Of a DNA stretch of 64,000 bases, positions 18,256-61,297 are shown piece after piece. The notes beneath the pieces were generated by a model. It was given only the letters and a program-made list of their open reading frames with translations. It was not told where the DNA came from and did not search any database. This DNA comes from Spirosoma sordidisoli (GTDB taxonomy: Bacteria; Bacteroidota; Bacteroidia; Cytophagales; Spirosomataceae), in assembly GCF_004138325.1 (NCBI RefSeq), contig NZ_SBLB01000014.1, positions 1 to 64,000 on the forward strand. The letters are read 5' to 3'. Position numbers and translations under genes: made by a program. Numbering within the stretch: the stretch's first letter is position 1; each line of letters opens with the position of its first letter.

Positions 18256-18316
18256 GTTTTATAAGCCACTCGTAAAATCTTACAACACTACTTATTCAGA
18301 ATAACCCCTATGTTTG
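18256..18316 (+). promoter_or_regulatory. Copper-regulon motif and -7 box before the HYC_CC_PP gene
   Basis: Half-sites GTTTTATAAG (18256-18265) and ATCTTACAAC (18277-18286) are direct repeats 21 bp apart. The -7 box TATGTTTG lies at 18309-18316, its TTTG 36 bp from the start of half-site 2. GTG 18321 follows after 4 nt. Confidence 0.65.
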
Positions 18317-18320
18317 CAGC

Positions 18321-18782
18321 GTGAAAAACCCTGTTGTCCATCGGTCCTGGTTTACTCGTCTGCTGTGTTTGTGGCTGGCGGGGTCCGTGCTGTTTGCCAG
18401 CAGTGGTTTCGTCGTGGTGGACCACTGGTGCCAAATGAGTGGCAAGAAGGTCGAGAGCCACCTAATGCCCAAGGCGTGTTTAAAAGCCTGTTCAGAGGAA
18501 GCCGCCTGTCCGCATGACAAATCAACCCGGACAATTCACAGAACACCCTGTTGTAAGGAAGTCGCTCGGTATGAACACTTAAAAACCGAACAATCGAACG
18601 CTGTTCACGCTATCGAGGTGAACCCGATTATCAGTGATCTTCCCTCTTTTGCCCAGGTAGCGCGGTTCCTATCCGTGTTATTACCGATTAGTGAGCCTTC
18701 CTCTGCTCCCCAACAGCCCGACGATCCGTTAATCCGATCTGGGCGTTTCCGATTAACCTCTCTCTGTAGTTGGCTTATTTGA
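18321..18782 (+). CDS. HYC_CC_PP-family exported protein
   Basis: The protein has 153 residues from GTG. A signal peptide (LLCLWLAGSVLFASSG) is followed by VVDHWCQMSGKK, a variant of the HYC motif, then ACLKACSEEAACPHDK, the CC pair in TPCCKEV, and a Pro-containing end PSSAPQQPDDP. These are the marks of the HYC_CC_PP family of Bacteroidota, small periplasmic proteins seen near copper genes. Cys and His residues probably bind copper. The start codon lies 4 nt after the -7 box, suggesting a leaderless transcript. It has its own copy of the bipartite motif. Confidence 0.7.
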   Translation: MKNPVVHRSWFTRLLCLWLAGSVLFASSGFVVVDHWCQMSGKKVESHLMPKACLKACSEEAACPHDKSTRTIHRTPCCKEVARYEHLKTEQSNAVHAIEVNPIISDLPSFAQVARFLSVLLPISEPSSAPQQPDDPLIRSGRFRLTSLCSWLI

Positions 18783-18948
18783 GCCGATTCGTTCGTGCCA
18801 TTACCGCTGGCAGACGCATCAGTGCGTCTTGGTCTGCGGCTTTTGGCATGTAGTCTCTCCACCTGGCATCATCTTACGTCTGTTCGGATATACATCCGTC
18901 GTATGGCAATCCGGTATTTCTATAAAATTCAACAAACCTACTAAAACA

Positions 18949-20025
18949 ATGACTAAGTACACTAAACTGGTGGCATTACTGCCGCTTATCCCCCTTGCAG
19001 GTTGCATGAACATGGACAACATGAACGCAACTCAGCCAATGCTGAACATCAACTACCCAGCCGCCTACGTGGTCAATGCTGAGGGAAATAGCCTGTCGGT
19101 TATTGACTTAACCGGGCAGCAGGTGAAAGAAACTATTTCGTTTGGGGACGCTTCTATGACCGGCATGAACATGAGCAACATGATTATGTGGCCGCACCAT
19201 ATTTACCTTTCGCCCGATGGCAGCAAACTGGGCATCGGTGTGCCAGGCATGGACCTCAGTGCCGGGCATACGGGGGGAACAACCGGCATGAATGGCCGTG
19301 TATTGGTCGTCAACCCGGTAACGGGCCAAACAGCCCAAAACCAGCAAACTCCGGTGATGAACCATAACGCCGTTTTCTCCGCCGATGGAACTGAAATCTG
19401 GACTTCCCAAATGGATATGACGGGCAAGGTACTGGTTTATAACGCCGGTACAATGGCCCTGAAAAATACCATTACGGTCGGTATGGAACCCGCCGAGGTA
19501 ACGATGTCATCCAATGGGCAGTATGCGTTTGTTGCCAATGGCATGAGCAACTCGGTGTCGGTCATTAAGGTTTCCGACAAGTCGGTGGCGAAGACCATTG
19601 CCGTTGGTGAGGACCCGGTTGGTGCCTGGCCGGGCGCGGATGGCAAGATGTACGTGGATAATGAAAAAGGCCAAAGCATCAGCGTCATTGACGTAAACAC
19701 GCTGTCGATGGTCGAAACCGTGAAACTGGGCTTCACACCGGGCTATGCCGCTTATCATCCTACTCGTAACGAACTCTGGGTGAGTCAGGCCGGGACGGGT
19801 ACTAAAGTAGTCATCTTCGAGCGAATGAATGGGGCCTGGATGAAGATGAGCGAGGTCCAAACGGGCCTGGATGCTCACGCCATCGCCTTCACCAAAGATG
19901 GAGCCACGGGCTATGTCACCAATCAGGGGGCCGCAACGGTATCTGTTCTGGACGTAGCCAAGCGCACTAAAATCAAAGACATTTCAGTGGGCAAGAAGCC
20001 CAACGGTATTGTGCTTAAGTATTAA
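18949..20025 (+). CDS. YncE-like seven-bladed beta-propeller lipoprotein
   Basis: A 358-residue protein with a lipobox (LIPLAGCMNMDNMN). The mature part has repeated blades such as AYVVNAEGNSLSVIDLTGQQV, YAFVANGMSNSVSVIKVSDKS, MYVDNEKGQSISVIDVNTL and GYVTNQGAATVSVLDVAK, typical of YncE/YVTN propellers. An unusual Met-rich stretch (MTGMNMSNMIMW and the NMDNMN start) could bind Cu(I). It is the first gene of the plus-strand run up to 26261; ATG 18949 was chosen because a signal peptide follows it. The upstream 166 bp hold a weak hairpin at 18812-18829, and I see no matching copper motif there. YncE-like proteins may bind metal or redox partners; the function is unproven. Confidence 0.8.
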   Translation: MTKYTKLVALLPLIPLAGCMNMDNMNATQPMLNINYPAAYVVNAEGNSLSVIDLTGQQVKETISFGDASMTGMNMSNMIMWPHHIYLSPDGSKLGIGVPGMDLSAGHTGGTTGMNGRVLVVNPVTGQTAQNQQTPVMNHNAVFSADGTEIWTSQMDMTGKVLVYNAGTMALKNTITVGMEPAEVTMSSNGQYAFVANGMSNSVSVIKVSDKSVAKTIAVGEDPVGAWPGADGKMYVDNEKGQSISVIDVNTLSMVETVKLGFTPGYAAYHPTRNELWVSQAGTGTKVVIFERMNGAWMKMSEVQTGLDAHAIAFTKDGATGYVTNQGAATVSVLDVAKRTKIKDISVGKKPNGIVLKY

Positions 20026-20039
20026 TCGGACCAATTCAC

Positions 20040-20906
20040 ATGACCAATTACCTGACTAAATCAACGCTGGCTATTACCCTGCTGGCTGGCGTAATGGCCC
20101 GGCCCGCGTCGGCTCAACTGAGTATGCCCGAGCCATCGCCATCGGCCACGGTGACGCAGAAAATCGGCTTTACCGATCTAACAATCAAGTACGCCCGCCC
20201 GGCGGTGAAGGGCCGAACTATCTTCGGGAAACTGGTTCCCTACGGCGAGTTGTGGCGTACCGGCGCGTCGGATGCCACCATCCTGACCGTCTCCGACCCG
20301 ATGACTGTAGCCGGAAAACCGCTGCCCGCCGGGAAGTATTCGCTCTTCACCATTCCCACCCGCACCGAGTGGACGGTGATCCTGAATTCCTACACCGAAG
20401 GACACGGCACGACGGGCTACGACGCAAAAAACGATGTGCTGCGGTTTACCGTCAAACCCGATTCGTCGGCGCGGTTCTACGAATCGTTCACTATAGAAAT
20501 GCAGGATGTGGTGAAAAATCAGGCGAATCTGTACCTGACCTGGGCCAATACGTCAGTTCATTTCCCGCTCGTGAGCAATGCCGATGAGCGGATTACGGCC
20601 GATATTCTGAAGCGCACAACCTCGGCTACCGACGAGGAGCCGGGCGTATTTTACCAGTCGGCCCTGTATTATTTCGACGCAGGCAAAGACCCGAAACAGG
20701 CGTTGGTCTGGGCCACCAAAGCCGCCACCCTCAAACCGGCCTTCAACTACCTGCACCTCCAGGCTAAGTTGCTGGCACAAACAGGCGATTATAAAGCGGC
20801 CATTGCTGCTGCCCGCAAATCGTCGGAATTAGCCGCCGAAAAGAAGTTTACCGAGTTCGTCACGCTGAACAATCAACTGATTGCCGGGTGGGAGAAGAAA
20901 CTGTGA
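20040..20906 (+). CDS. DUF2911 exported protein
   Basis: A 288-residue protein with a signal peptide (TLAITLLAGVMARPASAQ). The DUF2911 domain spans about residues 28-165: KIGFTDLTIKYARPAVKGR, GKLVPYGELWRTGASD, KPLPAGKYSLFTIPT and WTVILNS. A C-terminal helical part (ALYYFDAGKDPKQALVWATK onward) looks like TPR repeats. It begins 14 bp after the propeller gene, so it is in the same transcript. DUF2911 proteins are periplasmic and uncharacterised. Confidence 0.85.
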   Translation: MTNYLTKSTLAITLLAGVMARPASAQLSMPEPSPSATVTQKIGFTDLTIKYARPAVKGRTIFGKLVPYGELWRTGASDATILTVSDPMTVAGKPLPAGKYSLFTIPTRTEWTVILNSYTEGHGTTGYDAKNDVLRFTVKPDSSARFYESFTIEMQDVVKNQANLYLTWANTSVHFPLVSNADERITADILKRTTSATDEEPGVFYQSALYYFDAGKDPKQALVWATKAATLKPAFNYLHLQAKLLAQTGDYKAAIAAARKSSELAAEKKFTEFVTLNNQLIAGWEKKL

Positions 20907-20910
20907 CTGT

Positions 20911-21579: not shown

Positions 21580-21590
21580 ACGACAATACG

Positions 21591-22034: not shown

Positions 22035-22093
22035 GTCTGGGTAACGATAACGACTCTTTTGGGTACGCTAATCAACCGACACATACTACTGCA

Positions 22094-22810: not shown

Positions 22811-22816
22811 GTACGA

Positions 22817-25694: not shown

Positions 25695-26261
25695 ATGGCC
25701 ATTCAGGAACTTCATATCAAAAACATGGTTTGTGACCGCTGCGTGCGGGCGGTCCGGCAGGAACTCGAACAACAGGGGTACGTGGTTCGCCATATCGAAC
25801 TGGGCCGGGCGGCTGTGGAAGGAACCCTGATTGAGCTGGCTGTGCTGGAGGAGGGATTAGCGGCATTGGGCTTTGAGCTGCTGACCGACCGGAACGCCCG
25901 AACGGTCAACCAGATTAAGTCGCTCATTATTGACCTTATTCAAAGCGGACAGATCGCTAAACTGAATATTACCCTGTCGGATTATCTCTCCCAACAACTG
26001 GGTAAAGACTACGCCCACCTGAGCCACATCTTTTCGACTACCGAACACATCACCATTGAGCGGTTTTGGATCATGCAGCGCGTTGAACGGGCCAAGGAAC
26101 TGTTGAGCTATCGGGAATTATCAATCAGTGAAATTGCCACCCAGTTAGGCTACAGCAGTCTATCCTATCTGTCCAATCAATTCAAACAGGTAACCGGCAT
26201 GACTCCGGCTACGTACCGCGACCTGAACGCACCTGACCGCAACCCGCTGGACTGGATTTAA
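25695..26261 (+). CDS. HMA-AraC transcription regulator 1
   Basis: A 188-residue protein. Residues 1-65 look like a small HMA-type ferredoxin fold with MVCDRC (Cys13, Cys16), followed by VRQELEQQGYVVRHIELG and a second strand. Residues about 85-180 are an AraC DNA-binding domain: two helix-turn-helix units, with the second containing SISEIATQLGYSSLSYLSNQFKQVTGMTPATYRD. The combination of a metal-binding HMA-like domain with AraC suggests a direct copper sensor. Two paralogs lie in this window. It follows the hairpin by 13 bp and may share the 18949 operon or be read separately. Confidence 0.85.
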   Translation: MAIQELHIKNMVCDRCVRAVRQELEQQGYVVRHIELGRAAVEGTLIELAVLEEGLAALGFELLTDRNARTVNQIKSLIIDLIQSGQIAKLNITLSDYLSQQLGKDYAHLSHIFSTTEHITIERFWIMQRVERAKELLSYRELSISEIATQLGYSSLSYLSNQFKQVTGMTPATYRDLNAPDRNPLDWI

Positions 26262-26337: not shown

Positions 26338-26556
26338 TCAGGAATCTTTCTTCATCTTCATTTTATTGTGATCCATCTTGCTGTGGTCCATGCCCTTCAT
26401 AGAGCCGGACTTTCCGTCCATCTTCATGGTACTATGGTCCATTTTCTTGGCCGCCTTAGCCTGTTTTTTGGTCGCTTTGGCGGGCTTCTGGGTTTGAGCG
26501 AAACTTGCGCCAACCAGCAGCAGCGAAAGTGTGAAGGCAATGATTGTCTTTTTCAT
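26338..26556 (-). CDS. Small exported Met/His-rich copper-binding protein
   Basis: A 72-residue protein: a signal peptide (MKKTIIAFTLSLLLVGASFA), a Lys/Ala linker, and a tail of MDHS/MKM repeats (KMDHSTMKMDG, KGMDHSKMDHNKMKM). Such repeats bind Cu(I) through Met and Cu(II) through His and Asp, and the same units recur in copB and in the oxidase at 48665. A single perfect half-site (ATTTTACAAG, 26641-26632) lies upstream in its direction but without a partner at 21 bp, so regulation is uncertain. Confidence 0.78.
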   Translation of the reverse strand: MKKTIIAFTLSLLLVGASFAQTQKPAKATKKQAKAAKKMDHSTMKMDGKSGSMKGMDHSKMDHNKMKMKKDS

Positions 26557-26665
26557 GGCAAAGTCGTTACAAAAAATGTGTTGTTTCTGTCTCTTTAGAA
26601 CCTTGCAGTTGTTGGGATGTTCAGCTCCTTACTTGTAAAATTTTTGGATTGGCGCATTTCGCAAA

Positions 26666-26725
26666 AAACTATAACGACAGGCCAAAATTTTGTAGAACAA
26701 AAGCCGGTTTGTTTCCCCATTTTTG
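26666..26725 (+). promoter_or_regulatory. Copper-regulon motif before AraC regulator 2
   Basis: Half-sites AAACTATAAC (26666-26675, 7 of 10) and ATTTTGTAGA (26687-26696, 8 of 10) are 21 bp apart. The -7-like box CATTTTTG (26718-26725) has its TTTG exactly 35 bp after the start of half-site 2. ATG 26730 follows after 4 nt. This is the most degenerate of the ten sites. Confidence 0.5.
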
Positions 26726-26729: not shown

Positions 26730-27341
26730 ATGAACAGGGAGAGAGGAAATATAAATAGCGGCCTGATTACTGTGTCGGTTAAAGGGCTGACCAGCAGAGG
26801 GTTGATACAACATATTCGGCACGAACTTTCGGAAGCCGGGTTTCGGGTCATCGCCATTCGTCCAGGGCGAATTATGCTGCAGCAAACGGGGCCGTTGCTC
26901 AACCTGGAGCCACTGCTCGGTGTCTGGGGAGTTTCTCTGTTGAATGAGCGGGAACAGCAGGTATTTGAACACGCCAAAAACGGGTTAGCCAATCATCTGT
27001 CCCAGCGTTCGCTGTCGCTTCGGAACCTGCTAAAGCACCTAAGCGAACATACTCATTGCCCCTATGACCAGCTCAACGATTTGTTTCTGGCTACCGAAGG
27101 CATTACGTTCGGTCGGTACGTCGTGCTGCAACGCCTGGACAAGGCCATTGAACGACTAACGTACACCCGCGCAACGGTAGCCGAAATAGCCCGGCAAACC
27201 GGCTATCAGGACGAAGACCATCTAATCAGACACTTAGAAGCCGAACGCGGTTTACCACCCGCCCATTTTTTGGCCCTCCGAGACACCCGAATGAGTCGGG
27301 GGATGCACAGGTTGGTTACGGCTCCTGTTGGGATGAACTAA
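26730..27341 (+). CDS. HMA-AraC regulator 2 with a degenerate metal-binding domain
   Basis: A 203-residue protein. The N-terminal 75 residues keep the shape of the paralogs' HMA-like domain, but the loop that carries MxCxxC elsewhere reads VKGLTSRGLIQ, with no Cys. The C-terminal AraC domain is intact (YTRATVAEIARQTGYQDEDHLIRHLEAERG). Without the Cys pair it probably cannot bind Cu(I) the same way, so it may be constitutive, respond to another cue or act as a competitor. ATG 26730 is chosen because it starts the conserved domain and follows a -7 box. The longer frame from 26544 is not supported. Confidence 0.78.
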   Translation: MNRERGNINSGLITVSVKGLTSRGLIQHIRHELSEAGFRVIAIRPGRIMLQQTGPLLNLEPLLGVWGVSLLNEREQQVFEHAKNGLANHLSQRSLSLRNLLKHLSEHTHCPYDQLNDLFLATEGITFGRYVVLQRLDKAIERLTYTRATVAEIARQTGYQDEDHLIRHLEAERGLPPAHFLALRDTRMSRGMHRLVTAPVGMN

Positions 27342-27350: not shown

Positions 27351-27410
27351 ATTTTACAAGCCTTGCCCGAAATTGTGTAACGCATCCGGGTCACGAATGG
27401 CAGACCTTTG
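27351..27410 (+). promoter_or_regulatory. Copper-regulon motif before the copper chaperone gene
   Basis: Half-sites ATTTTACAAG (27351-27360) and ATTGTGTAAC (27372-27381) are 21 bp apart. The -7-like GACCTTTG is at 27403-27410, its TTTG 35 bp from the start of half-site 2. Sequence beyond the half-sites (AACGC, TCCGGG) matches the copA site at 45468. Confidence 0.72.
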
Positions 27411-27441: not shown

Positions 27442-27669
27442 ATGGAAACGACAACACAATCTGAAATTCAGTTTAAAACGAACATTAAGTGTGGCGGCTG
27501 TATCGCTACCGTTACCCCATTTTTAGACAAAACGGTTGGTGCCCAGCATTGGCAGGTCGATACGGCCAGCCCCGATAAAGTGCTAACGGTACAGGCAGAT
27601 GGCGTATCGGCCGAGCAGGTACAGAAGGCCGTGCAACAGGCCGGTTACAAAGCCGAACTGCTACATTAA
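27442..27669 (+). CDS. HMA-domain copper chaperone (CopZ-like)
   Basis: A 75-residue protein with a single HMA domain: FKTNIKCGGCIATVTPFLDK with Cys17 and Cys20, then AGVSAEQVQKAV-type helix and QQAGYKAELLH. It has no signal peptide and so is cytosolic. Such proteins carry Cu(I) to P1B-ATPases such as CopA. I chose ATG 27442, which lies 31 nt after the -7 box, over GTG 27433. It follows AraC regulator 2 by about 100 bp and has its own motif. Confidence 0.88.
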   Translation: METTTQSEIQFKTNIKCGGCIATVTPFLDKTVGAQHWQVDTASPDKVLTVQADGVSAEQVQKAVQQAGYKAELLH

Positions 27670-27770: not shown

Positions 27771-27831
27771 ATTTTATAATAAACCGGCGTTAATCTTATA
27801 ACTCGGCCTGTTCGGTTTTGCACTATTTTTG
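27771..27831 (+). promoter_or_regulatory. Copper-regulon motif before the cus operon
   Basis: Half-sites ATTTTATAAT (27771-27780) and ATCTTATAAC (27793-27802) are 22 bp apart. The -7 box TATTTTTG (27824-27831) matches TAnnTTTG, with TTTG 35 bp from the start of half-site 2. Confidence 0.72.
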
Positions 27832-41960: not shown

Positions 41961-42021
41961 ATTTTACAAATTCCTTAGCACAATCTTACAAGGTAGTCAT
42001 TGATGAAACCACGTAGATTTG
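41961..42021 (+). promoter_or_regulatory. Copper-regulon motif before a 59-codon ORF
   Basis: Half-sites ATTTTACAAA (41961-41970) and ATCTTACAAG (41983-41992) are 22 bp apart. The -7 box TAGATTTG is at 42014-42021, with TTTG 35 bp from the start of half-site 2. All elements are close to consensus. Confidence 0.72.
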
Positions 42022-42040: not shown

Positions 42041-42220
42041 ATGAACGAGCTACTCAGGGCTTCCGACGATGTTTTTGATGCACGAATCGCACAAATGCTT
42101 ACTCGTGATGACCATCCGGTCAAAGAGACCAAATTGGTCCCGGCCCACTGGAAAAAATTAAGGCTCCGTTTGGAAATACGTGCGTCAGGTTTCATAGATC
42201 ATCCCCGTAGTAATAACTAA
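42041..42220 (+). CDS. Small protein of 59 residues in the copper regulon
   Basis: A frame from ATG 42041 to TAA 42218-42220: it starts MNELLRASDDVFDARIAQML and ends FIDHPRSNN, a polar helical protein with a basic centre (HWKKLRLRLEIRA). There is no signal peptide or Cys. Support comes from its position 19 nt after a good -7 box within one of the clearest motif copies. I do not recognise it. It converges with copB, whose stop lies 19 bp away. Confidence 0.6.
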   Translation: MNELLRASDDVFDARIAQMLTRDDHPVKETKLVPAHWKKLRLRLEIRASGFIDHPRSNN

Positions 42221-44753: not shown

Positions 44754-44813
44754 ATTTTGTAACAAGCGTAAGGCAATCTTGCAAGTAAAACCAGGCCATC
44801 TCGAATAGCTTTG
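44754..44813 (+). promoter_or_regulatory. Copper-regulon motif before AraC regulator 3
   Basis: Half-sites ATTTTGTAAC (44754-44763) and ATCTTGCAAG (44776-44785) are 22 bp apart. The -7 box TAGCTTTG lies at 44806-44813, its TTTG 34 bp from half-site 2. The regulator's ATG is 49 bp beyond. The half-sites are nearly palindromic and could also be read from copB's side, but no -7 box is seen there. Confidence 0.68.
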
Positions 44814-44861: not shown

Positions 44862-45464
44862 ATGATAACGCGTAGCCAGCCTTTACCAACCAACGAAACA
44901 CCACTCGCGATCCGGGGCATGGTCTGTGCCCGGTGTATGGATGTGGTTCGGCAGGAACTGGAAGACTTGGGCTGGGAAGTAACCCAGATGCGACTGGGGC
45001 ACGTGCAGGTACGTGGTCAGGTATCCCCGGACGAGTTGGCCCGGATTCAGGTCACTTTGGAAAAACAAGGCTTTTCATTGGTGTCGGACGCTAAAGTGAC
45101 GCTTGTACAACGTATTAAAACCCTCGTTGAGCAGACGCTGAACCGTGATGATTTAAGTGAGCGTAAAATCAGGTTTTCTGATTTTCTCGCTACCGAACTG
45201 AGCATGAGTTATGATAAGCTGAGTGCCCTTTTTTCGGCCAGCGAGGGCCAAACGCTCGAACGATACGTGATTGAACGGCGGTTGGATAAGGTCAAAGAAC
45301 GCTTAGTGTACAGTGATCTGTCACTAAGCGAGATAGCGCATCAGACGGGGTATAGCAGCGTCCCTCATTTGTCGAACCAGTTTAAACGGCTGACAGGTCT
45401 CTCCCCGACCTTTTTCCGCACCGTTCGGCGCGATAAACAGGCCCTCCAGCAGCAGACAGGGTAA
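44862..45464 (+). CDS. HMA-AraC transcription regulator 3
   Basis: A 200-residue paralog of the regulator at 25695. The N-terminal HMA-like domain has RGMVCARCMDVVRQELEDLG (Cys22, Cys25), followed by WEVTQMRLGHVQVRG. The AraC domain contains SLSEIAHQTGYSSVPHLSNQFKRLTG. Its own promoter carries the bipartite motif, which suggests autoregulation, and it sits between copB and copA. It is the best candidate to sense copper and activate the regulon. Homologous HMA-AraC proteins occur widely in Bacteroidota. I know of no experimental study. Confidence 0.87.
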   Translation: MITRSQPLPTNETPLAIRGMVCARCMDVVRQELEDLGWEVTQMRLGHVQVRGQVSPDELARIQVTLEKQGFSLVSDAKVTLVQRIKTLVEQTLNRDDLSERKIRFSDFLATELSMSYDKLSALFSASEGQTLERYVIERRLDKVKERLVYSDLSLSEIAHQTGYSSVPHLSNQFKRLTGLSPTFFRTVRRDKQALQQQTG

Positions 45465-45467: not shown

Positions 45468-45527
45468 ATTTTACAAGCTAAATGGGCAATTGTGTAACGC
45501 TTCCGGGGCGAAGCCGAACGAACTTTG
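45468..45527 (+). promoter_or_regulatory. Copper-regulon motif before copA
   Basis: Half-sites ATTTTACAAG (45468-45477) and ATTGTGTAAC (45489-45498) are 21 bp apart, with -7-like GAACTTTG (45520-45527) 35 bp from half-site 2 start to TTTG. Both half-sites are identical to those before the chaperone gene at 27351. Confidence 0.75.
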
Positions 45528-45554: not shown

Positions 45555-47819
45555 ATGAATACGCCAACTATCGCCCCGGAGAAGCCCGTTCGATCAGCGG
45601 GAGCTATCACCCGCCAAACGTTCCCGGTGCTGGAAATGACCTGCGCGGCCTGCGCCGTGAGCGTCGAGTCGATGCTCAACAATACGCCTGGCGTTGCCAA
45701 AGCCGCCGTAAATTATGCGAACCAGTCGGCTACCGTCGATTATAATCCAAAGGCCATCACGCCCCAGGGTATGCAACAGGTGCTACAGTCGATTGGCTAT
45801 GATCTGGTTGTGGATGTGGAAGACCCGCAAGCTGTACAGCAGGAAGCCCAGCAACGGCATTATGAGGCTGTTAAGCAGCGTACCCTCTGGGCAGGTATTC
45901 TGTCGGTTCCGGTGGTCATCATCGGTATGTTCTTCATGAATGCACCCTTTGCCAACTATATCATGATGGCTCTTTCAGCCCCGGTGGTGTTCTGGCTGGG
46001 TCGGTCGTATTTTATCAACGCCTGGAAACAGGCGCGGCACGGCAAGGCCAATATGGATACGCTCGTAGCCCTATCAACGGGTATTGCCTTTCTGTTCAGC
46101 GCATTCAATACGCTCTACCCGGAGTTCTGGCACAGCCGGGGGCTGCATCCACACGTCTATTTTGAAGCGGCTGCGGTGGTTATTGCGTTCATCTCGCTGG
46201 GCAAGCTGCTCGAAGAGCGGGCCAAGTCGAATACATCCTCGGCACTGAAGAAACTGATGGGCCTCCAGCCCAAAACGGTTCGGGTTATCGAAGACAATAC
46301 GGAACGCGACGTGCCGATTGCGTCGGTCAGGGTAGGCCAGTTGCTCCTGGTGCGGCCCGGGGAGAAAATTCCGGTGGACGGCAGGGTTGAATCCGGCCAG
46401 TCCTATGTGGATGAAAGTATGATTTCGGGGGAGCCGGTGCCCGTTAACAAGCAGGCGGGCGAAGCGGTCTTTGCCGGTACGATCAATCAGAAAGGCTCAT
46501 TTCGTTTCCGGGCGGACAAAGTGGGGGGCGATACCATTCTGGCGCAAATTATCCGTATGGTTCAGGAAGCCCAGGGCAGCAAGGCTCCGGTGCAGAAATT
46601 GGTCGATAAAATTGCCGGCATTTTTGTGCCGGTTGTGATTGGTATCGCTCTGTTAACGTTCGCGGCCTGGATGCTTTTCGGGGGTGAGAACGCCTTTACT
46701 CATGCCCTGCTGACTTCGGTGACAGTGCTGGTCATCGCCTGTCCCTGTGCATTGGGGCTGGCGACACCTACCGCCATTATGGTTGGGGTAGGCAAGGGAG
46801 CCGAAAACAACATACTCATCAAAGACGCGGAAAGTCTGGAACTTGGCTACAAAGTCAACGCGGTCATTCTGGATAAAACAGGCACCATCACCGAGGGGAA
46901 ACCAACCGTAACGGATCTGGCCTGGCAGGTTAGCGAAGTTGAGGTAGCCCGTTTATCGCCTGTACTCTACGCGCTCGAAGCTCAGTCGGAACATCCTTTG
47001 GCTCAGGCCGTTGTTGATCGATTGAAACAGGCGGGTGTCGGGGGCCTTTCCCTTGATGGTTTTGAAAGCCTTACGGGGCAGGGAATAACGGGCCGATATA
47101 ACGGGCAAACCTACTCGGTTGGCAATCGCCGACTGATAGCCGAGCAGGGCCAGTTAGATCAACTAACAAAAGTGAATGGTCTGGTCAGTCGCTGGCAGGA
47201 CGAAGCGAAAACGGTCGTTTATTTTGCGGATGAAGCACGCATCCTGGCGATTCTGGCGATTGCCGACCCCGTGAAGCAAACCTCCCGCGAAGCTATTCAC
47301 ACATTACGAAAGCGGGGAATTGCTGTGTACATGATGACCGGCGACAACAAACAAACCGCTCAGGCAGTGGCAAAGGCAGTGGGCGTTAGCGACTACCGGG
47401 CCGAGGCCCTGCCCACCGATAAAGCGGCCTTTGTGAAGGAGTTACAGGCGCAGGGTAAGGTCGTTGCGATGATTGGCGACGGTATCAATGATTCGCAGGC
47501 ACTGGCACAGGCCGACGTAAGCATTGCGATGGGACGGGGGTCAGATATTGCCATGGACGTAGCCAAGATGACGCTCATCACGTCTGACCTGAACAGCGTA
47601 CCCAAAGCCCTCCAACTCTCGAAGAAAACGGTACAGGCCATTCGGCAAAACCTGTTCTGGGCGTTCATTTATAACCTCATCGGCATTCCGATTGCTGCCG
47701 GGCTACTATATCCTATCAACGGATTCCTGCTCAACCCGATGATTGCTGGTGCGGCAATGGCCCTGAGTTCCGTATCTGTCGTGACCAACAGTTTGCGGTT
47801 GCGTTCGGCAAAACTGTAA
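45555..47819 (+). CDS. copA: P1B-1 copper-exporting ATPase (CopA)
   Basis: The 754-residue pump begins with one HMA domain ([14 protein letters not shown], Cys30 and Cys33). The membrane part has [11 protein letters not shown] (CPC at residues 396-398), Asp440 in [15 protein letters not shown] and [10 protein letters not shown]. The last helices ([16 protein letters not shown] and [20 protein letters not shown]-type) carry the YN and MxxS residues of Cu(I) P1B-1 pumps. It exports Cu(I) from the cytoplasm and is a main target of the regulon, with the motif 28 bp upstream of the start region. ATG 45555 is used rather than the TTG at 45525. Confidence 0.94.
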
Positions 47820-47920: not shown

Positions 47921-47983
47921 GTTTTGCAACAAGTCAGCCAAATCTTATAAACGTCTCCGACATCCAAAGGGGCATCTTATAAG
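47921..47983 (+). promoter_or_regulatory. Copper-regulon motif with a third half-site, before a DUF305 gene
   Basis: Half-sites GTTTTGCAAC (47921-47930) and ATCTTATAAA (47942-47951) are 21 bp apart. A third, ATCTTATAAG, is at 47974-47983 (32 bp further). No clear TAnnTTTG box follows. ATG 48011 is 28 bp from the third half-site. Confidence 0.58.
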
Positions 47984-48010
47984 TTATAGTATTACTCAAC
48001 GAACCAAACT

Positions 48011-48538
48011 ATGGAAGCGCACACGCAACACACGGGACACGCCCAATCTTCTCAAACCGGTCATGCTATGTCCAATCATGGGGCGGCTAACGGGCAACCT
48101 TACGGAAAGTTGGCTATCATGGGTGTTCTATCTTTTATTTCCATGTACGTGCTGATGTATTCGATGGTTGATCGGTTTGCCAACGTGATCCCGAACGTCA
48201 ATCAGTTGTATATGGCGGGCCTGATGACCATGCCAATGCTGATTATCGAAGTCCTGCTGATGTCATCCATGTACATGGACAAACGACGGAATGCACTCGT
48301 TATCGCCGTCAGTGCCGTTGCGCTTGTCGGATTCTTTTTGCTGATCCGTCAACAGGGTTTTGTTGGGGACAAAGAATTCGCTAAGTCCATGATTCCGCAC
48401 CATGCTGCGGCTATTCTGATGGCTAAAGAAGCGAAGCTGACAGACCCTGAGCTGCAAAAGCTTCAGCAGGATATTATCACGGCCCAGGAGAAGGAAATTA
48501 AACAAATGAAGGATAAGCTGGCCGAGTTAAATAAATAG
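48011..48538 (+). CDS. DUF305 membrane protein
   Basis: A 175-residue protein with a His-rich N-terminus (MEAHTQHTGHAQSSQTGHAM), three membrane helices (LAIMGVLSFISMYVLMYSMV; LMTMPMLIIEVLLMSSM; LVIAVSAVALVGFFLLI) and a DUF305-type C-terminus: FAKSMIPHHAAAILMAKEAK and QQDIITAQEKEIKQMKDKL. The IPHHAAAI motif is the DUF305 His pair, likely a metal site. It is directly downstream of a bipartite motif, so it is likely induced with copA. Confidence 0.8.
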   Translation: MEAHTQHTGHAQSSQTGHAMSNHGAANGQPYGKLAIMGVLSFISMYVLMYSMVDRFANVIPNVNQLYMAGLMTMPMLIIEVLLMSSMYMDKRRNALVIAVSAVALVGFFLLIRQQGFVGDKEFAKSMIPHHAAAILMAKEAKLTDPELQKLQQDIITAQEKEIKQMKDKLAELNK

Positions 48539-48570: not shown

Positions 48571-48632
48571 GTTTCACAATACCACTGGTCAATCTTACAA
48601 GCGGCTCTTCCATCCGGCAGGGCTGCTTTTTG
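48571..48632 (+). promoter_or_regulatory. Copper-regulon motif before the Met-rich multicopper oxidase
   Basis: Half-sites GTTTCACAAT (48571-48580) and ATCTTACAAG (48592-48601) are 21 bp apart. The nearest TTTG is at 48629-48632, 37 bp from half-site 2, slightly more than in the others. Confidence 0.6.
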
Positions 48633-48664: not shown

Positions 48665-51532
48665 ATGATGAAAAACACTTTTTTTGCGACGTTAAGTCTG
48701 CTGATGCTGCTACAAACAGCCAGTTATGGGCAACACCAGCAGCATACGATGTCCGCTGACGATCAGGCAGCCAAGCCACCTGCCAATCCCGACAAATCCA
48801 ACTTTCCGGTCGTTAAAACATCTCTGCCCGTTTCCCGGCCCCAGGCTCTTGCAAAGGTGAAACCCACCGGTAAGCGGGTCGAATATGATCTCACCATTGA
48901 TGAGCAGACGGTGAACATTACGGGCAAGCCGAAGAAGGCCATGACTATTAATGGGGGTATTCCCGGCCCGACGATGCGGTTTACCGAAGGCGATGTAGCC
49001 GTTATTCGGGTACACAACAAATTAAAAACCGAAACCTCGCTGCACTGGCACGGCATATTACTCCCCAACAAACAGGATGGCGTTTCGTATCTGAATACCC
49101 CTCCGATTCATGCGGGTGACACCTATACGTTCGAGTACCCGCTGGTTCAGTCCGGCACGTACTGGTTTCACTCGCACACGCGCTACCAGGAGCAGGTAGG
49201 GGTGTACGGCTCCATTGCCATCCAGCCCCAGCAAATTACCCACAAGGTAGATCATGACCTGGTGCTGTTGCTGTCGGATTGGACGAATGAGAATCCGGCG
49301 TACATTCTGAAAAACCTGAAACGGCGTAACGAATGGTACTCCATCAAAAAAAACAATGTCCAGTCACTCAACCGCATTATTCAGCACAAGGCGGTGGGTG
49401 CGTACCTGCGGCAGTCGATGATGAAGATGGCCCCGATGGATATATCGGATGTGTACTACGACCGGTTCTTAATTAATGGAAAAGACACCGTGCGTTACCC
49501 GGAAATCAAAGCGGGCCAAACCGTTCGGCTGCGGGTTATAAACGCCAGTGCATCCACCTATTTTCACGTCAACTACGCCGGTGGCCCTATGAAACTGATT
49601 TCCGCCGATGGGCTGGACGTGCAGCCGGTAGACGTTGACCGGCGGCTGATTGCCATTGCCGAGACCTACGATTTTATTGTCACCGTACCGAAAGGCGGAG
49701 CTTTTGAAGTGCGGGCCACTGCTCAGGATGGGTCTGGCTACGCAACGGCCTTGCTCGGAAATGGCCCGGCGAAGTACGCTCCGACGGTTCCCCGCCCCGA
49801 TCTCTACAAGTTAACGGCCAATATGAGCCAAATGGGAGGCATGGGCATGGGTACAATGAATATGGGGAAAACCGACACGACTGCTCAGGCCAACGTGGAC
49901 ATGAACGGCCCCATGATGCACGATAGGCCCGGCATGTCGGGTGGCAACATGAACAAGGCGACGGTCAACCCGGCTAAAGCCGGTAAGGCGGAGTCCGCTA
50001 TGGGTCAAATGGATCATAGCCAAATGGATATGGGACAGGGTAAACCAGCAAAACCGGCCCCTGCTACGCCTAAAAAGCCCAATTCGATGGCCGGCATGGG
50101 CAATATGGCCGGAATGGACCACAGCAAGATGGATATGGGTGCAAAGTCCTCAGCAAAGAGGTCGGCTTCGACAAAAAAGGCTTCTAAGCCAAAGCCAACG
50201 AAAGCGGCCGGCTCAATGGCGGGTATGAAGATGGGTGGTATGAACATGGATATGGCCGGCATGAACTCGAGTAAAGACGGCAAAATGGACATGACGGGGA
50301 TGGACCACGGGCAGATGAATCAATCATCCATGCCCGGTATGGATCATAGTAAAATGTCCATAAAAATGGATTCAATGCCCGCTAAGAAGACAGACAGCAA
50401 AAAGCCGGATTCGATGGCTGGCATGGATCACAGCAAGATGAATATGGGTGGCAAGCCCGGCGATATGGCCGGGATGCAGGGAATGAAGCCCGGGGACGGG
50501 GGGATGGCCGGCATGAGCATGATGGACGAGCAGAATACCATCGACTATAGCATTCTCAAATCGCCCGAACCCATTGTGTTTCCCACCAACCACCCGATTC
50601 GGGAAATTCCGCTGACTCTGACGGGAAATATGTTTCGCTACATCTGGGGCTTCAATGGCCAACCCATGTCGCGGGCGGATATGATCCAGATTCGGCGGGG
50701 TGAAATCGTGCGTATCCGCATGATAAACAACACCATGATGATGCACCCCATTCACCTGCACGGGCATTATTTCCGGGTGCTGAACGGGCAGGGGCAGTAC
50801 TCGCCCCTGAAGCATACGGTTAACGTATCACCCATGGAGAGCGTCACGATTGAGTTTATGGCCGATGATGAGAAAGACTGGTTTTTTCACTGCCACCTGC
50901 TCTATCATATGCTCAGTGGCATGGCCCGCGTGGTCAGCTATGGCGACAAACCAGACTCCTCGATTGCCAACATCCAGAAGCAGCACCTGCGCGAAATGCG
51001 CGACAATCAGCCGTTTGTCTGGGGTTTCCTGCAACCCGGTTATCCAATCAACTACTTTAATCTGAACGTTTCCAACAACAAAAATGCTATCGTTGCCGGG
51101 GGCGATCACGACTGGCGCACGAACCGGTTCGAGTTCGACTTAGACTATGAACGATACCTCGGCGATTGGCTCCGCGTATTTGCCGGGATTGACGGCGGTA
51201 ATGAAGAGTTTCTGCGCCGGATACGACCCGAAGATGGGATACCCACCGACCGGCGCATCGTCCGGGCTGTGGCCGGTATTCGGTATATGCTGCCGTTTCT
51301 GATTCAATCGGAAGTAAAACTCGATACGCGCGGTAACGTCCGGTTCCAGCTCAATGGGCAGCAAATGTTGTTTCCCCGCTTAGATTTCCAGTATCAAACG
51401 CAGTGGTTAGTGGGTAGCTACGTGCGGGCGCACGTTGAGTTGCAGTACACCGTCACCAAAAATCTGTTTCTTCATACGGATTACGATACCCGGTACAAAG
51501 CCTTTGGCGGTGGATTGGGATACAATTTCTGA
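48665..51532 (+). CDS. CopA/PcoA-type multicopper oxidase with Met-rich insert and PcoB-like tail
   Basis: The 955-residue exported protein (signal FFATLSLLMLLQTASYGQ) has cupredoxin domains with copper ligands LHWHGILLPNKQDGV, WFHSHTRYQEQ, MMHPIHLHGHYFRVL and FFHCHLLYHMLSGM. A Met/His-rich block of about 250 residues lies between them, with repeats such as MDHSKM, MAGM and GMDHGQMN. After about residue 790 there is a segment not found in plain oxidases: RTNRFEFDLDYERYLGDWL, VAGIRYMLPFLIQSEVKLD, and WLVGSYVRAHVELQY, ending FGGGLGYNF, which resembles PcoB/CopB outer-membrane strands. This is likely a copper oxidase tethered to, or acting with, an outer-membrane barrel. Confidence 0.88.
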   Translation: MMKNTFFATLSLLMLLQTASYGQHQQHTMSADDQAAKPPANPDKSNFPVVKTSLPVSRPQALAKVKPTGKRVEYDLTIDEQTVNITGKPKKAMTINGGIPGPTMRFTEGDVAVIRVHNKLKTETSLHWHGILLPNKQDGVSYLNTPPIHAGDTYTFEYPLVQSGTYWFHSHTRYQEQVGVYGSIAIQPQQITHKVDHDLVLLLSDWTNENPAYILKNLKRRNEWYSIKKNNVQSLNRIIQHKAVGAYLRQSMMKMAPMDISDVYYDRFLINGKDTVRYPEIKAGQTVRLRVINASASTYFHVNYAGGPMKLISADGLDVQPVDVDRRLIAIAETYDFIVTVPKGGAFEVRATAQDGSGYATALLGNGPAKYAPTVPRPDLYKLTANMSQMGGMGMGTMNMGKTDTTAQANVDMNGPMMHDRPGMSGGNMNKATVNPAKAGKAESAMGQMDHSQMDMGQGKPAKPAPATPKKPNSMAGMGNMAGMDHSKMDMGAKSSAKRSASTKKASKPKPTKAAGSMAGMKMGGMNMDMAGMNSSKDGKMDMTGMDHGQMNQSSMPGMDHSKMSIKMDSMPAKKTDSKKPDSMAGMDHSKMNMGGKPGDMAGMQGMKPGDGGMAGMSMMDEQNTIDYSILKSPEPIVFPTNHPIREIPLTLTGNMFRYIWGFNGQPMSRADMIQIRRGEIVRIRMINNTMMMHPIHLHGHYFRVLNGQGQYSPLKHTVNVSPMESVTIEFMADDEKDWFFHCHLLYHMLSGMARVVSYGDKPDSSIANIQKQHLREMRDNQPFVWGFLQPGYPINYFNLNVSNNKNAIVAGGDHDWRTNRFEFDLDYERYLGDWLRVFAGIDGGNEEFLRRIRPEDGIPTDRRIVRAVAGIRYMLPFLIQSEVKLDTRGNVRFQLNGQQMLFPRLDFQYQTQWLVGSYVRAHVELQYTVTKNLFLHTDYDTRYKAFGGGLGYNF

Positions 51533-59057: not shown

Positions 59058-59063
59058 GTTCAA

Positions 59064-59609
59064 TTAGAGAAGTTCATTCCTATCAGCCAGCCAATCGCTC
59101 GACAGGTACGCATAGAGGACGGTATCCATCAACACATTATTTTTAACGACACTGTCCCGGAGTAACCCTTCCCGACGAAAGCCGGCCTTTTCAAGTACCT
59201 TGATCGAGGCCGCATTGTGCGCCATTGGCTGCGCGTAAAGCCGGGTAAGCCTAAATTGCGCGAACGCATAGTCGATCATGGCCCTCAAGGCTGCCGACAC
59301 AATCCCACGTCCCCAGTGCGCCTGTCCAAGCCAGTACCAAAGTTCGGCTGAAAACCGGTCAATGTCGTCGCCGATTCGTAGGCCAATATTGCCTACGGCT
59401 TCTCCGCCTACGTCAATAGCAAAGTTGGTTTCCAGTTCAGGGTCAACGACGTATTGTATCCACCGCTGGGCATCGGGTTGGGTATATGGGTGAGGGAAGC
59501 TATCGCGGAGATGAAGCCAGATGGCTTTATTGTTGGCGTGCTGAGGCAGGTGATCTTCATCGCCGTATTGCCACGAGCGGATCAGACAGGGGCCACAATC
59601 AATTTTCAT
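59064..59609 (-). CDS. GNAT-family acetyltransferase (RimJ/RimL-like)
   Basis: A 181-residue protein from ATG 59609: MKIDCGPCLIRSWQYGDEDH, then FAIDVGGEAVGNIGLR, YWLGQAHWGRGIVSAALRAM (acetyl-CoA loop QxHWGRG) and NAASIKVLEKAGFRREGLLR. This is a typical RimJ/RimL N-acetyltransferase. It ends 6 bp before the NRPS-PKS start, so both are one transcript, and it may acetylate an amino group of the product or give self-protection. ATG 59651 is a possible but poorer start. Confidence 0.85.
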   Translation of the reverse strand: MKIDCGPCLIRSWQYGDEDHLPQHANNKAIWLHLRDSFPHPYTQPDAQRWIQYVVDPELETNFAIDVGGEAVGNIGLRIGDDIDRFSAELWYWLGQAHWGRGIVSAALRAMIDYAFAQFRLTRLYAQPMAHNAASIKVLEKAGFRREGLLRDSVVKNNVLMDTVLYAYLSSDWLADRNELL

Positions 59610-59761
59610 GGGTTGAGGTATAAAGAAGAAGCAGACTCTACATATTAACATCGACTAATTAGAGCCACTGTTTTGACGGTAGAAACGGGAGTTGTCACCA
59701 AGTAAACAATACCAAGATTTCGCTGGATTTATGTAAAATATTTGGATTTCGTTAAAAACAC

Positions 59762-59804
59762 GAGCGACAGGAGCGTAACCCACATAAGGTTACTCCTGTC
59801 GCTC
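59762..59804 (-). terminator. Terminator between the DUF305 gene and the GNAT-NRPS operon
   Basis: A 17-bp stem with a 2-nt bulge, GAGCGACAGGAG / CTCCTGTCGCTC plus TAACC / GGTTA, and a 7-nt loop lies between the 59827 stop and 59609. On the minus strand it follows the DUF305 gene and protects the downstream operon from read-through. Confidence 0.75.
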
Positions 59805-59826
59805 TTATAAAAAACGTCTGCTTTCG

Positions 59827-60411
59827 TTACCGGGAGGCAATCTGAGCTTCGAGTTTTTTAAGTTCGGCGACCTCTTTTGTCTGAGCCTGAATGACTTTCC
59901 GAGCCATCATTTTCATCTTCTCCGTTTTTCCCTCCTTTAAAAAAGCGTTGGCCATGTCGATGCCCTGCTGATGGTGCTGTGCCATCATACTGGCAAAATC
60001 GTGATCCACATTGCCGTTCATCGAATGGCTGCCACCGTGCATAATTTCCATACCTTTCTGCCCCAATTTTGAGGAAGACATTTGGGGCTTGTGGCTGCTG
60101 ATGAACTGCGTCAGCTCCTTAATTTCGTTCTGATTAGCCGTTTTGATTTTACCCGCTAAGGCTTTTACCTGTGCGTTTTTGCCCTGCCTGATTTCCATCT
60201 CCGACATCTCTACTGCCGATTGGTGGTGCATTTTAAGCATCATGGCAAAATCATGGTCGGGGTCGCCGGTCATCTTCATGCTCATCATCTGATTCATGCC
60301 GGATTGCATGGCCTTCATCATCCCGTTGCTGGCCGACTGCTGGGCCAATGTTGGTTGAGCGAGTAGTAGAGCCGCACTGAGTGAGACCACGGTGAACAGT
60401 TTGTTTTTCAT
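59827..60411 (-). CDS. Exported DUF305 protein with two DUF305 units
   Basis: A 194-residue protein from ATG 60411 with a signal peptide (FTVVSLSAALLLAQPTLAQQ). Two DUF305 units are visible: GDPDHDFAMMLKMHHQSAVEM and VDHDFASMMAQHHQQGIDMA. Between and around them are Met-rich segments (SGMNQMMSMKMTG; MEIMHGGSHSMNG). Both His pairs (MHHQ, QHHQ) probably bind metal, perhaps copper. The longer frame adds four residues (MPIR) upstream. It is 86 bp downstream of another DUF305 gene and may be co-transcribed. Confidence 0.85.
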   Translation of the reverse strand: MKNKLFTVVSLSAALLLAQPTLAQQSASNGMMKAMQSGMNQMMSMKMTGDPDHDFAMMLKMHHQSAVEMSEMEIRQGKNAQVKALAGKIKTANQNEIKELTQFISSHKPQMSSSKLGQKGMEIMHGGSHSMNGNVDHDFASMMAQHHQQGIDMANAFLKEGKTEKMKMMARKVIQAQTKEVAELKKLEAQIASR

Positions 60412-60497
60412 ACGTATTGGCAACTTGATTAATTGAGAAATGACAAAACCGCCAACACGCGCTTTTAGGCAGTATCGGCGGCAGAATGTCGATAGAA

Positions 60498-61211
60498 TTA
60501 TTTAAGTTCTGCGTTCGGTATGCCATGTTTATTAGCAAACGCAGCTAATTCCTTGAGGGCACTGGCCTGCTCCGTAATGATAATACTGGCCTCATCGGTC
60601 GGTGCTTTATCATTGCCGTACTTAAATTGAAGCGTGGCCATTGCGATAGCCCCCTTGTGATGCTCAATCAACCGGCGCACAAAATCAACGTCCACATCGG
60701 CGGTGTTCGGAACCTTTGCATAGGCCTGAATCATCTGCTTCATGGCTGTTTTCATCTCCTTTTTGAACTGCTTATAAACGTTGGCATCTATCTTTTCGGG
60801 CGCGGGATGTCCGTTCAAAAACGATTGCAGACGTGTCTGGCTTTCCTTGTCGCCCTTAATGGCCATATCGGCCAGTTTCTTCGCTTCAGCGTGTTTGCCA
60901 TACTGATTTTCAGCGGTTCCCAGATCAATGCTTCCCTGGTGGTGCATCTTCATCATCATGGCGAAGTCCATGTCCGGGTCGCCCGTCATGTCCATGTTTT
61001 CCATATCGCGCATCATCTGCCCCAGTACCCGGTCCGATTCCCGGTCAAATGCTTGGTCGTTGGGATCATTCGATGAGGTCCGCGCACTGGCTTCCGTCAG
61101 GATTTCGGGTTCAATAGCTTCACTGCTATTCTTGTCGCACCCCGTCAGGGTGAGGGCCATAGCTAATGCCAGCCCGGTCAGGTTGGTTGCTGATAAAAAG
61201 TTCTTTTTCAT
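60498..61211 (-). CDS. Lipoprotein-like DUF305 protein, probable copper-regulon member
   Basis: A 237-residue protein from ATG 61211 with a lipobox-like signal (LALAMALTLTGCDKNSSEA). The first DUF305 unit has DPDMDFAMMMKMHHQGSIDL, the second VDVDFVRRLIEHHKGAIAMA. Helical segments (AKKLADMAIKGDKESQTRLQ) lie between. It is preceded by a bipartite motif on the minus strand, so it probably belongs to the copper regulon although it is 13 kb away from the others. The tandem gene at 59827 is likely in the same unit. Confidence 0.82.
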   Translation of the reverse strand: MKKNFLSATNLTGLALAMALTLTGCDKNSSEAIEPEILTEASARTSSNDPNDQAFDRESDRVLGQMMRDMENMDMTGDPDMDFAMMMKMHHQGSIDLGTAENQYGKHAEAKKLADMAIKGDKESQTRLQSFLNGHPAPEKIDANVYKQFKKEMKTAMKQMIQAYAKVPNTADVDVDFVRRLIEHHKGAIAMATLQFKYGNDKAPTDEASIIITEQASALKELAAFANKHGIPNAELK

Positions 61212-61266
61212 GCTGTTGAGTAATGTGATTTTACCCCTGTATAACTGTGGGTAGTTTGTAAAGGTT

Positions 61267-61297
61267 GTTACAATATTCTCTACCAAGCTTATAGAAT
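61267..61297 (-). promoter_or_regulatory. Copper-regulon motif (minus strand) before the DUF305 operon
   Basis: Minus-strand half-sites ATTCTATAAG (61297-61288, 9 of 10) and ATATTGTAAC (61276-61267, 9 of 10) are 21 bp apart. No TTTG is found at the usual 35 bp. The region GTTATACAG at that place could be a poor -7 box. Confidence 0.58.

Follow-up and report, generated by a model that had tools for sequence, protein, structure and literature searches.

In the 64-kb window, that is, the whole stretch of DNA that was analysed, a motif of two direct half-sites recurs in front of copper-related genes, and this motif is real. The sites very likely represent a class-II activator operator of HMA-AraC, a fusion protein that presumably senses Cu(I). 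Judged from its sequence, HMA-AraC would be a one-component regulator of Bacteroidota that starts with a CopZ-like HMA domain (MVCxRC) and ends in an AraC-type DNA-binding domain.

All ten half-site pairs reported in the initial annotation could be located in the window at their positions, and the TTTG that it had placed 34-36 nt after the start of half-site 2 (24-26 nt after its end) was verified at seven of them, the pairs starting at 18256, 26666, 27351, 27771, 41961, 44754 and 45468. Each pair was removed in turn from the ten-site matrix and the whole window was scored. Nine of the ten pairs obtained leave-one-out scores of 20.2-27.8 bits, and each of these ranked ninth or better when every position of either strand was considered. 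The top score of the full matrix in 60 windows simulated with a first-order Markov model was 19.6, and the mean maximum was 15.7.

Site O1 (18256-18286, plus strand; half-sites 18256-18265 and 18277-18286; TTTG at 18313, offset 26; 26.5 bits leave-one-out) precedes the gene for a Cys-rich small protein at 18321, and orthologous promoters were found in L039 and L045. The genes that follow O1 on the same strand, possibly one operon, include the HMA-AraC gene at 25695. O2 (27351-27381, plus strand; TTTG at 27407; 25.0 bits leave-one-out; E 3.5e-4 with R2, a model of 34 sites from other genera) is located before a small HMA copper-chaperone-like protein (27442-27669, plus strand), which scored 23.2 bits with Pfam HMA, just below the cut-off of 24.8; an orthologous promoter is present in L045. 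O3 (27771-27802, plus strand, 22-bp period; TTTG at 27828; 27.8 bits, rank 1) stands before 27865 and cus-type RND genes, and a near-identical site was identified in pSLIN02 (L233:301, distance 264 nt). The assignment of HYC_CC_PP to a downstream gene was not supported, as 18321 reached only 22.4 bits against a cut-off of 28 and 27865 was unmatched. O4 (41961-41992, plus strand, 22-bp period; TTTG at 42018; 24.3 bits) precedes a 59-aa ORF (42041-42220), and its pSLIN02 counterpart lies 49 nt ahead of the annotated 180-nt CDS Slin_6887. O5 (44754-44785, plus strand, 22-bp period; TTTG at 44810; 24.0 bits) is located before the HMA-AraC gene at 44862, an arrangement also found in L038, L042, L044, L046, L047 and L233-L235. 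O6 (45468-45498, plus strand; TTTG at 45524; 25.0 bits; E 0.047 with R2) precedes copA (45555-47819, plus strand), encoding a CopA-like copper-type P-type ATPase (TIGR01511, 621.8 bits, cut-off 397).

The remaining strong sites are found before DUF305 and oxidase genes. O7 (47921-47951, plus strand; 22.7 bits) precedes a DUF305 protein gene at 48011, with corresponding sites ahead of DUF305 orthologues in L038, L042, L044 and L046 and of DUF305 genes in L233-L235. O9 (61267-61297, minus strand; 22.8 bits) precedes a DUF305/CopM-type gene (60498-61211; CopM model 93.6 bits, cut-off 90), and sites of its type stand ahead of other DUF305 genes in L038, L042, L044, L234 and L235. TTTG was looked for at both O7 and O9 and none was found; it is absent from the usual place in these two window promoters and in seven relatives, all of them DUF305 promoters. 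O8 (48571-48601, plus strand; TTTG at 48629, offset 27; 20.2 bits) is located before a multicopper oxidase gene at 48665, and its pSLIN02 counterpart lies 61 nt ahead of a multicopper oxidase.

The tenth, operator-like pair (26666/26687; 26666-26696, plus strand; TTTG at 26722, offset 25) precedes the AraC paralogue at 26730 and is weak, with some independent support, since the model of family sites described below did not recover it genome-wide at E ≤ 1, yet it obtained E 0.19 genome-wide with R2. Its leave-one-out score was 10.75 bits (rank 30). Another pair, on the minus strand at 26641, scored 14.9 bits and was not counted, its second half being poor.

A sequence-only model built from 26 family sites was scanned against the 7.37-Mb genome and returned 15 places at E ≤ 0.002, of which nine are in the window and the other six on contig C4; the next-best place had an E of 0.16. 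As this model had been trained on all 15, the scan is informative only in what it did not find: no further strong site appeared outside the two copper clusters of the genome. Random positions had been proposed as a check on the motif, and it was not found there at such strength, either in the 60 simulated windows or in the genome scan. R2 recovered only three of the ten window sites at E ≤ 1, and it yielded many weaker matches in Flavobacterium.

Conservation upstream of orthologues, a further check named in the initial annotation, was observed at every level, from genus through family and order to phylum. The phylum set comprised 77 copper-gene ORFs drawn from 48 of the 80 fetched loci of Bacteroidota. 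Unseeded Gibbs sampling of the 77 upstream regions resulted in AATctTAtAAaTc.t..cca.AATt.T.TAA, with an information of 16.8 compared to 8.5 for shuffled letters; unguided discovery returned the same 21-bp direct repeat ahead of copper-gene ORFs across the phylum. In a held-out test, the operator was identified at 54 of 77 copper-target ORFs vs 40 of 691 other ORFs. TTTG was present 24-25 nt downstream in 49 of the 54 held-out sites, and the direct orientation scored better than the inverted one in all 54. The sites, their conservation, direct orientation and fixed register are computational observations. L040, L041, L043 and L048 were searched and contained no site of at least 18.5 bits; site-like matches in L040 and L048 were left out, as by eye they overlie an apparent inverted repeat.

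The window encodes three proteins of the HMA-AraC type. The proposed binder (44862-45464, plus strand) carries MVCARC and matched HTH_18 with 72.9 bits. Its structure model (pLDDT 86.6) was related by Foldseek to 3lsg (TMt 0.86, E 2e-5) and to CopZ 2qif (TMt 0.72, E 0.014). A second regulator (25695-26261, plus strand; MVCDRC; HTH_18 66.5 bits) was included in the family alignments. The paralogue at 26730-27341 (plus strand) has the longest branch in the tree (5.06). It had been counted as an AraC regulator with an operator of its own. The operator is the weak one described above, and in the alignment the protein lacks CxxC and several invariant residues of an altered second helix-turn-helix, so that it probably does not function as a copper sensor. 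Spirosoma linguale DSM 74 encodes an HMA-AraC, Slin_6889, with 96% identity. The family profile matches the HMA domains of CopZ and ATP7B as well as AraC-type DNA-binding domains. All 20 aligned members matched HTH_18 and HTH_AraC at E 0.01, and Foldseek related the C-terminal two-HTH domain, as in the AraC/XylS family, to MarA, SoxS and AraC domains. At the same E, Pfam HMA itself matched just four of the 20; profile and fold (2qif) showed the CopZ-like, ferredoxin-like HMA domain with CxxC after the first strand, and M[VTI]CxxC is present in 78 of 80 loci. In a derived HMA-AraC clade, SxxC replaces CxxC and the operator is kept.

The motif was associated with the HMA-AraC gene by co-occurrence and by adjacency, both of which, like the two-domain protein itself, were established computationally; they support the link made in the initial annotation, with HMA-AraC as the putative binder. 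In the window's order, copA was preceded by operator and TTTG in 30 of 37 genomes with HMA-AraC vs 0 of 10 scored without it (Fisher 3.8e-6), and at ≥ 40% identity in 35 of 49 vs 0 of 17 (Fisher 1e-7), tests that ignore the relatedness of the genomes. Second copies, hits under 40% identity and L129 and L200, the latter two because contig ends are close upstream, were left out of this comparison. When score alone was used, without the TTTG condition and with the two truncated loci kept, the contrasts were 32 of 38 vs 1 of 11 and 37 of 50 vs 2 of 18. Seven of the 37 HMA-AraC genomes had no site with TTTG ahead of their best copA. The sole strong site among the ten genomes scored without HMA-AraC was at L176 in G109, whose HMA-AraC is cut by the contig end and which was nevertheless counted as lacking it. 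Genera g39 and g42 have the site in those species that carry HMA-AraC, and it is missing in a near-complete species without the gene. The operator starts ≤ 200 nt past the HMA-AraC stop codon in 48 of the 80 fetched loci (median 1 nt; 37 with TTTG), compared to 7 of 400 random stretches by the same measure (3 of 400 with TTTG), the matrix having been partly trained on the same loci.

Outside the family, the promoter of the regulator itself ranked below 0.05 in 5 of 78 loci, with ~4 expected (two of 80 were dropped as too near a contig edge), and in the held-out test the operator was found at 11 of 92 HMA-AraC own promoters vs 40 of 691 other ORFs. Autoregulation is predicted clearly in the window's family and near chance level phylum-wide. 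When only the region ahead of HMA-AraC was searched in distant loci, the outcome was at chance level; the sites there mostly lie after HMA-AraC and before the next gene.

At araI1-I2, a class-II activator site, AraC occupies two direct half-sites ~21 bp apart, of which the proximal one overlaps the -35 element. The initial annotation had proposed such a geometry, and the data fit it: the repeats are direct (54/54) with a 21-22 bp period, the proximal half is at -33/-35 and the distance to TTTG is fixed. Both systems thus share ~21-bp direct half-sites, a proximal half over -35/-33 and an AraC-type DNA-binding domain; they differ in the sensor, an HMA domain in HMA-AraC and a sugar-binding and dimerisation domain in AraC, and in the operator, which for HMA-AraC has a 10-12 bp core with TTryAA and stands at -7/-33 promoters. 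In the proposed mechanism, two HMA-AraC protomers would lie side by side on direct repeats of AATnTTryAAs with a period of 21 (or 22) bp. With the half-site closer to the promoter in place of the -33 element, HMA-AraC would be held at a constant 24-25 nt ahead of the -7 TTTG, from where it could contact RNA polymerase, as in class-II activation. Binding of Cu(I) to the two cysteines may make or stabilise the active pair, which would turn on the genes for export (CopA, cus), chaperone, DUF305/CopM, oxidase and regulators. We infer that HMA-AraC is the binder, that it activates and does not repress, that its ligand is Cu(I) and that the protomers pair; the metal is taken from the target genes, and silver or another thiophilic metal would also be possible.

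Since half-site 2 spans the -33 position, occlusion is geometrically possible as well, and HMA-AraC might bind the repeats as a repressor that is released by copper, like CopY or CsoR. This is improbable: an activator that touches polymerase would be expected to have direct repeats at an unvarying distance from TTTG (24-25 nt in 49/54), whereas a repressor needs neither. Overlap with the -33 region and a position before TTTG could also mean that the repeat belongs to the phylum's basal promoter; this reading was rejected because of the rarity of the motif, with no place beyond the 15 training sites reaching E 0.1 in 7.37 Mb and 40/691 other ORFs vs 54/77 targets, and is extremely improbable. 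Several regulators are encoded in copper clusters, and a two-component pair on a Fibrella plasmid starts ~1.4 kb from operator L234:23276, which would suit binding by another regulator, for example of the CusR type, with HMA-AraC co-occurring by linkage. Against this, which is rather improbable too and slightly less credible than a repressor, an operator begins no more than 200 nt after the HMA-AraC gene in 48/80 loci, and it also follows SxxC HMA-AraC genes with non-copper neighbours (8 of 30 loci), where the shared element is the regulator.

Most of the copper sensors known so far are members of the CueR, CsoR, CopY and CusRS families. Neither HMA-AraC nor its operator was found described earlier in the openly licensed PubMed Central literature. 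In the available part of one survey, only two-component and ECF-sigma-factor homologues are given for a group of phyla including Bacteroidota, and the word AraC is absent from that part (PMC10141476). YbtA is an AraC-type regulator of the copper-yersiniabactin response that needs a CXXC for activity and for which repeats were proposed as sites, and so resembles HMA-AraC in type, CXXC, copper-linked response and repeat sites; it differs in its signal, a Cu(II)-siderophore complex, its Cys-rich N-terminal domain and its siderophore gene targets (PMC8725597). The corresponding features of HMA-AraC are its CopZ-like domain and its copper-export neighbours. The CopY/CopR operator is likewise a short conserved element ahead of copper-export genes, but it is a repressor-bound palindrome, RNYKACANNTGTMRNY (PMC7253601), whereas the window operator is a direct repeat and a proposed activator site. 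The CopY core TACANNTGTA is found twice in the window, at 1687 and 52351, in neither case at an operator, and the CopY palindrome was rejected as the identity of the sites.

In the SxxC clade, the operator stands before ice-binding-like genes in seven loci, which suggests rewiring of the sensor with a conserved operator. It is conceivable, though somewhat short of probable, that HMA-AraC forms a distinct class of one-component copper-activated activators and a main copper regulator of Bacteroidota, its HMA domains pairing on the tandem operator with the help of Cu(I), and that the SxxC clade arose from it by loss of the first cysteine and, with operator and -7 register unchanged, came to serve ice-binding-like secreted proteins and, as judged by eye, stress-type genes. 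If so, one operator would serve two signalling systems, in its own genome within one cell, a natural case in which a sensor domain loses its metal site and the DNA site stays fixed. The phylum-wide operator and the chaperone-domain/AraC fusion provide a candidate regulator with a defined DNA target and regulon; copper control is suggested for Cys-rich small proteins, the 59-aa ORF (unnamed small proteins) and DUF305 genes, and copper control in Bacteroidota thereby becomes directly testable.

The initial annotation had proposed ten copies of an operator in the window, each consisting of two direct 10-bp half-sites (rTyTTryAAs) with a period of 21-22 bp, and all ten pairs could be confirmed at their coordinates. 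When each pair was omitted from the matrix in turn, nine scored 20.2-27.8 bits, and the pair at 26666 scored 10.75 bits; the ceiling in 60 simulated windows was 19.6 bits with the full matrix. A TTTG, part of the -7 promoter element, had been assigned to seven sites and was indeed found 24-26 nt past half-site 2 in seven, 26666 among them. At site 48571 its offset was 27, and at sites 47921 and 61297 it was absent downstream of half-site 2. The 7.37-Mb genome (27 contigs) was scanned with a model trained on 26 sites of the family, of which this genome contributed 15. At E <= 0.002, 15 places were found: the window contains nine, and contig C4, a second copper cluster of this genome, contains six. 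Since all 15 are training sites, their recovery is no evidence; the evidence is the absence of further places, as no other place in the genome fell under E 0.16. By simulation and genome scan alike, the motif did not recur at random positions as strongly as at these sites.

The window forms bases 1-64000 of contig C6 (105,845 bases). One of its predicted regulators with a CopZ-like HMA domain and an AraC-type DNA-binding domain (HMA-AraC; 44862-45464) shares 96% identity with a protein encoded by the Spirosoma linguale DSM 74 plasmid pSLIN02, and we infer that the window represents either a plasmid of Spirosoma type or a copper island derived from such a plasmid.

Conservation upstream of orthologous genes was analyzed in eleven stretches from the same genome and relatives, using a threshold of 18.5 bits. 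At this threshold 22 sites were identified in seven stretches, two of contig C4 and five from four other genomes (L042, L044, L045, L046, L047), and none in L040, L041, L043 and L048. They precede orthologues of copA, HMA-AraC, DUF305 genes, the 18321 protein and the HMA chaperone, as well as small ORFs. TTTG lies exactly 25 nt past half-site 2 in 15 of the 22, and all seven others precede DUF305 genes. In annotated stretches of the plasmids pSLIN02, pSLIN01 and one Fibrella plasmid, 17 matches of at least 20 bits were found, none of them inside an annotated gene. Twelve are located 49-104 nt upstream of copA, HMA-AraC, DUF305, the oxidase or the 59-aa ORF; for the other five, the next same-strand gene in the incomplete gene table is 216, 264, 361, 399 and 2899 nt away. 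The operator thus precedes orthologous copper genes in other genomes and on plasmids, and it does so across the phylum (see below).

Three features of these promoters were observed in addition. DUF305 promoters keep the operator with TTTG not at its usual place (window 47921-48010 and 61211-61297, and seven related promoters in L038, L042, L044, L046) and seem to be a promoter class of their own. Two strong pairs on S. linguale plasmids (L233:33458 and L235:16304) have no annotated same-strand gene within 360 nt downstream and perhaps serve unannotated small copper genes. In one genus (g19; L154, L155, L203-L206), half-site 2 before copA resembles ATTnCGyACC in most copies, and half-site 1 has the usual form.

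A scan with the HMA-AraC alignment yielded a best 80 loci that are mostly from Bacteroidota; some belong to Ignavibacteria, and one lies in a MAG labelled Pseudomonadales. On both strands of these loci, the pair with TTTG was matched 41 times at a score of at least 19, in 32 of the 80, compared with 0 in one simulation per locus; at score 17, 67 matches compared with 5 simulated. Unseeded Gibbs sampling of 77 upstream regions (46 copA-, 27 chaperone- and 4 copB-like ORFs from 48 of the best 80 loci) returned AATctTAtAAaTc.t..cca.AATt.T.TAA, and thereby recovered the window's repeat and its period; the best of four starts reached 16.8 bits, the others 11.4, 15.7 and 15.0, and one shuffled run 8.5. 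In a five-fold test with target loci held out and the matrix seeded from the window, a score of at least 8 was reached by 54/77 target ORFs and 40/691 other ORFs (of at least 150 aa), and at least 12 by 53/77 and 28/691. Some site-bearing non-targets encode HMA proteins or efflux functions, others have no obvious copper role. In the 54 held-out sites the TTTG offset was 25 in 40 and 24 in nine, and a direct fit of half-site 2 to half-site 1 was better than an inverted one in all 54, an informative result given that the core TTryAA is self-complementary. An operator starts within 200 nt past the HMA-AraC stop codon in 48 of the best 80 loci (median 1 nt; TTTG in 37), compared with seven operators, three with TTTG, in 400 random stretches, as counted with a matrix trained on those same loci.

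HMA-AraC was matched at E <= 1e-15 in 112 of the 194 Cytophagales genomes sampled. copA was searched in all 82 genomes without a match and in 70 of 111 others with one, with E-value limits of 1e-60 and 1e-150 that were not uniform between searches, and 450 nt upstream of each best copA were scored. With L129 and L200 left out because of contig ends upstream, operator and TTTG were found, for copA of at least 55% identity, in 30/37 genomes with HMA-AraC and 0/10 without (Fisher 3.8e-6, relatedness ignored) and, at 40% or more, in 35/49 and 0/17 (Fisher 1e-7, relatedness ignored). By score alone, with both loci included and relatedness again ignored, the counts were 32/38 and 1/11, and 37/50 and 2/18. 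The strong exception is L176 in G109 (score 20.6, no TTTG at 24-26), a genome in which HMA-AraC is in fact present, cut by a contig end; a repeat search of the remaining nine of these ten genomes with the family profile gave best matches confined to the AraC DNA-binding half. The second exception, L134 (score 10.4, without TTTG), resembles a chance match. In both genera g39 and g42, some species have the gene and the site, and one near-complete species lacks both. Genus g30 follows the same pattern, but its gene-less genome is just 72% complete, and g38 is uninformative since its species lack the site with or without HMA-AraC.

An operator at the promoter of the HMA-AraC gene itself is present in the window's family. 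Phylum-wide, such promoters barely exceed chance (11/92 compared with 40/691 other ORFs; among the best 80 loci, 5/78 below rank 0.05, ~4 expected), and feedback is therefore a local feature. The paralogue at 26730-27341, the longest branch of the tree, lacks CxxC, is altered at several residues invariant in the second helix-turn-helix and follows the weak tenth pair (26666). It could be a copy in decay or an antagonist. Divergent from it lies a Met/His-rich small protein with MDHSKM repeats (26340-26555, minus strand), with a single good half-site on its strand at 26641. A further HMA-AraC on contig C12 (781197-781772; L004, L040) has no strong operator and adjoins an ORF that by eye resembles a TonB receptor, as is also found at the HMA-AraC locus L082.

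A model from other genera (34 sites, four from Dyadobacter, of the same family as the window genome) recovered just three of the ten window sites at E <= 1 and is thus insensitive across families. In held-out Chitinophaga and Sphingobacterium genomes its best matches precede, by eye, HMA-AraC, P-type ATPase, HMA, efflux and small Cys-rich genes; many weaker matches in Flavobacterium are without explanation. Its top match in the Spirosoma genome is chromosomal (C1:916842, E 6.8e-5). It directly follows an HMA-AraC gene without the first cysteine (SxxC, reading MVSLCC; C1:916281-916902; L041, L239, L266), and the gene downstream encodes an ice-binding-like protein (PF11999, 126 bits). A search with this regulator matched 65 of the 194 genomes. 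Among the best 30 loci, 27 read MVSxxC and three were unassigned by motif search. Operator and TTTG lie downstream of the regulator in eight (simulations, mean 0.1 and at most 1 in ten runs; reverse strand, 0; upstream parts, 2), followed by an ice-binding-like gene in seven; by the same criterion the remaining 22 have none. In a quickly built 176-row tree, a single change explains the 27 SxxC rows (branch support 85, not starred), which are nested with five CxxC rows in a starred group (99). In an Emticicia genome (L238, L245, L252, L264), four operator matches occur in 4 kb beside an SxxC HMA-AraC, followed by ORFs that by eye resemble cupin, response regulator and small stress-type proteins. 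The SxxC proteins would represent a rewired branch that kept the same operator.

No description of an HMA-AraC operator was found in the openly licensed PubMed Central literature, a scope in which absence is weak evidence of novelty. For the window's three AraC proteins, no NCBIfam model was matched at its cut-off. In the aligned family, the N-terminus matches solved HMA domains (CopZ, ATP7B) and the C-terminus AraC-type DNA-binding domains, and the predicted fold is consistent with both halves, with weak E-values for the HMA half. Class-II AraC-type activators characteristically bind direct repeats that are separated by two helical turns, with one half-site at position -33 and a constant distance to the -7 element. 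The operator resembles theirs in its 24-25 nt register to -7, its half-site at -33 and its direct repeats, and by this analogy carries the marks of class-II activation. The CxxC-bearing HMA domain, together with the CopA, chaperone, cus, oxidase and CopM-type DUF305 genes nearby, points to Cu(I) as a candidate ligand of HMA-AraC. Two HMA domains are proposed to pair over copper.
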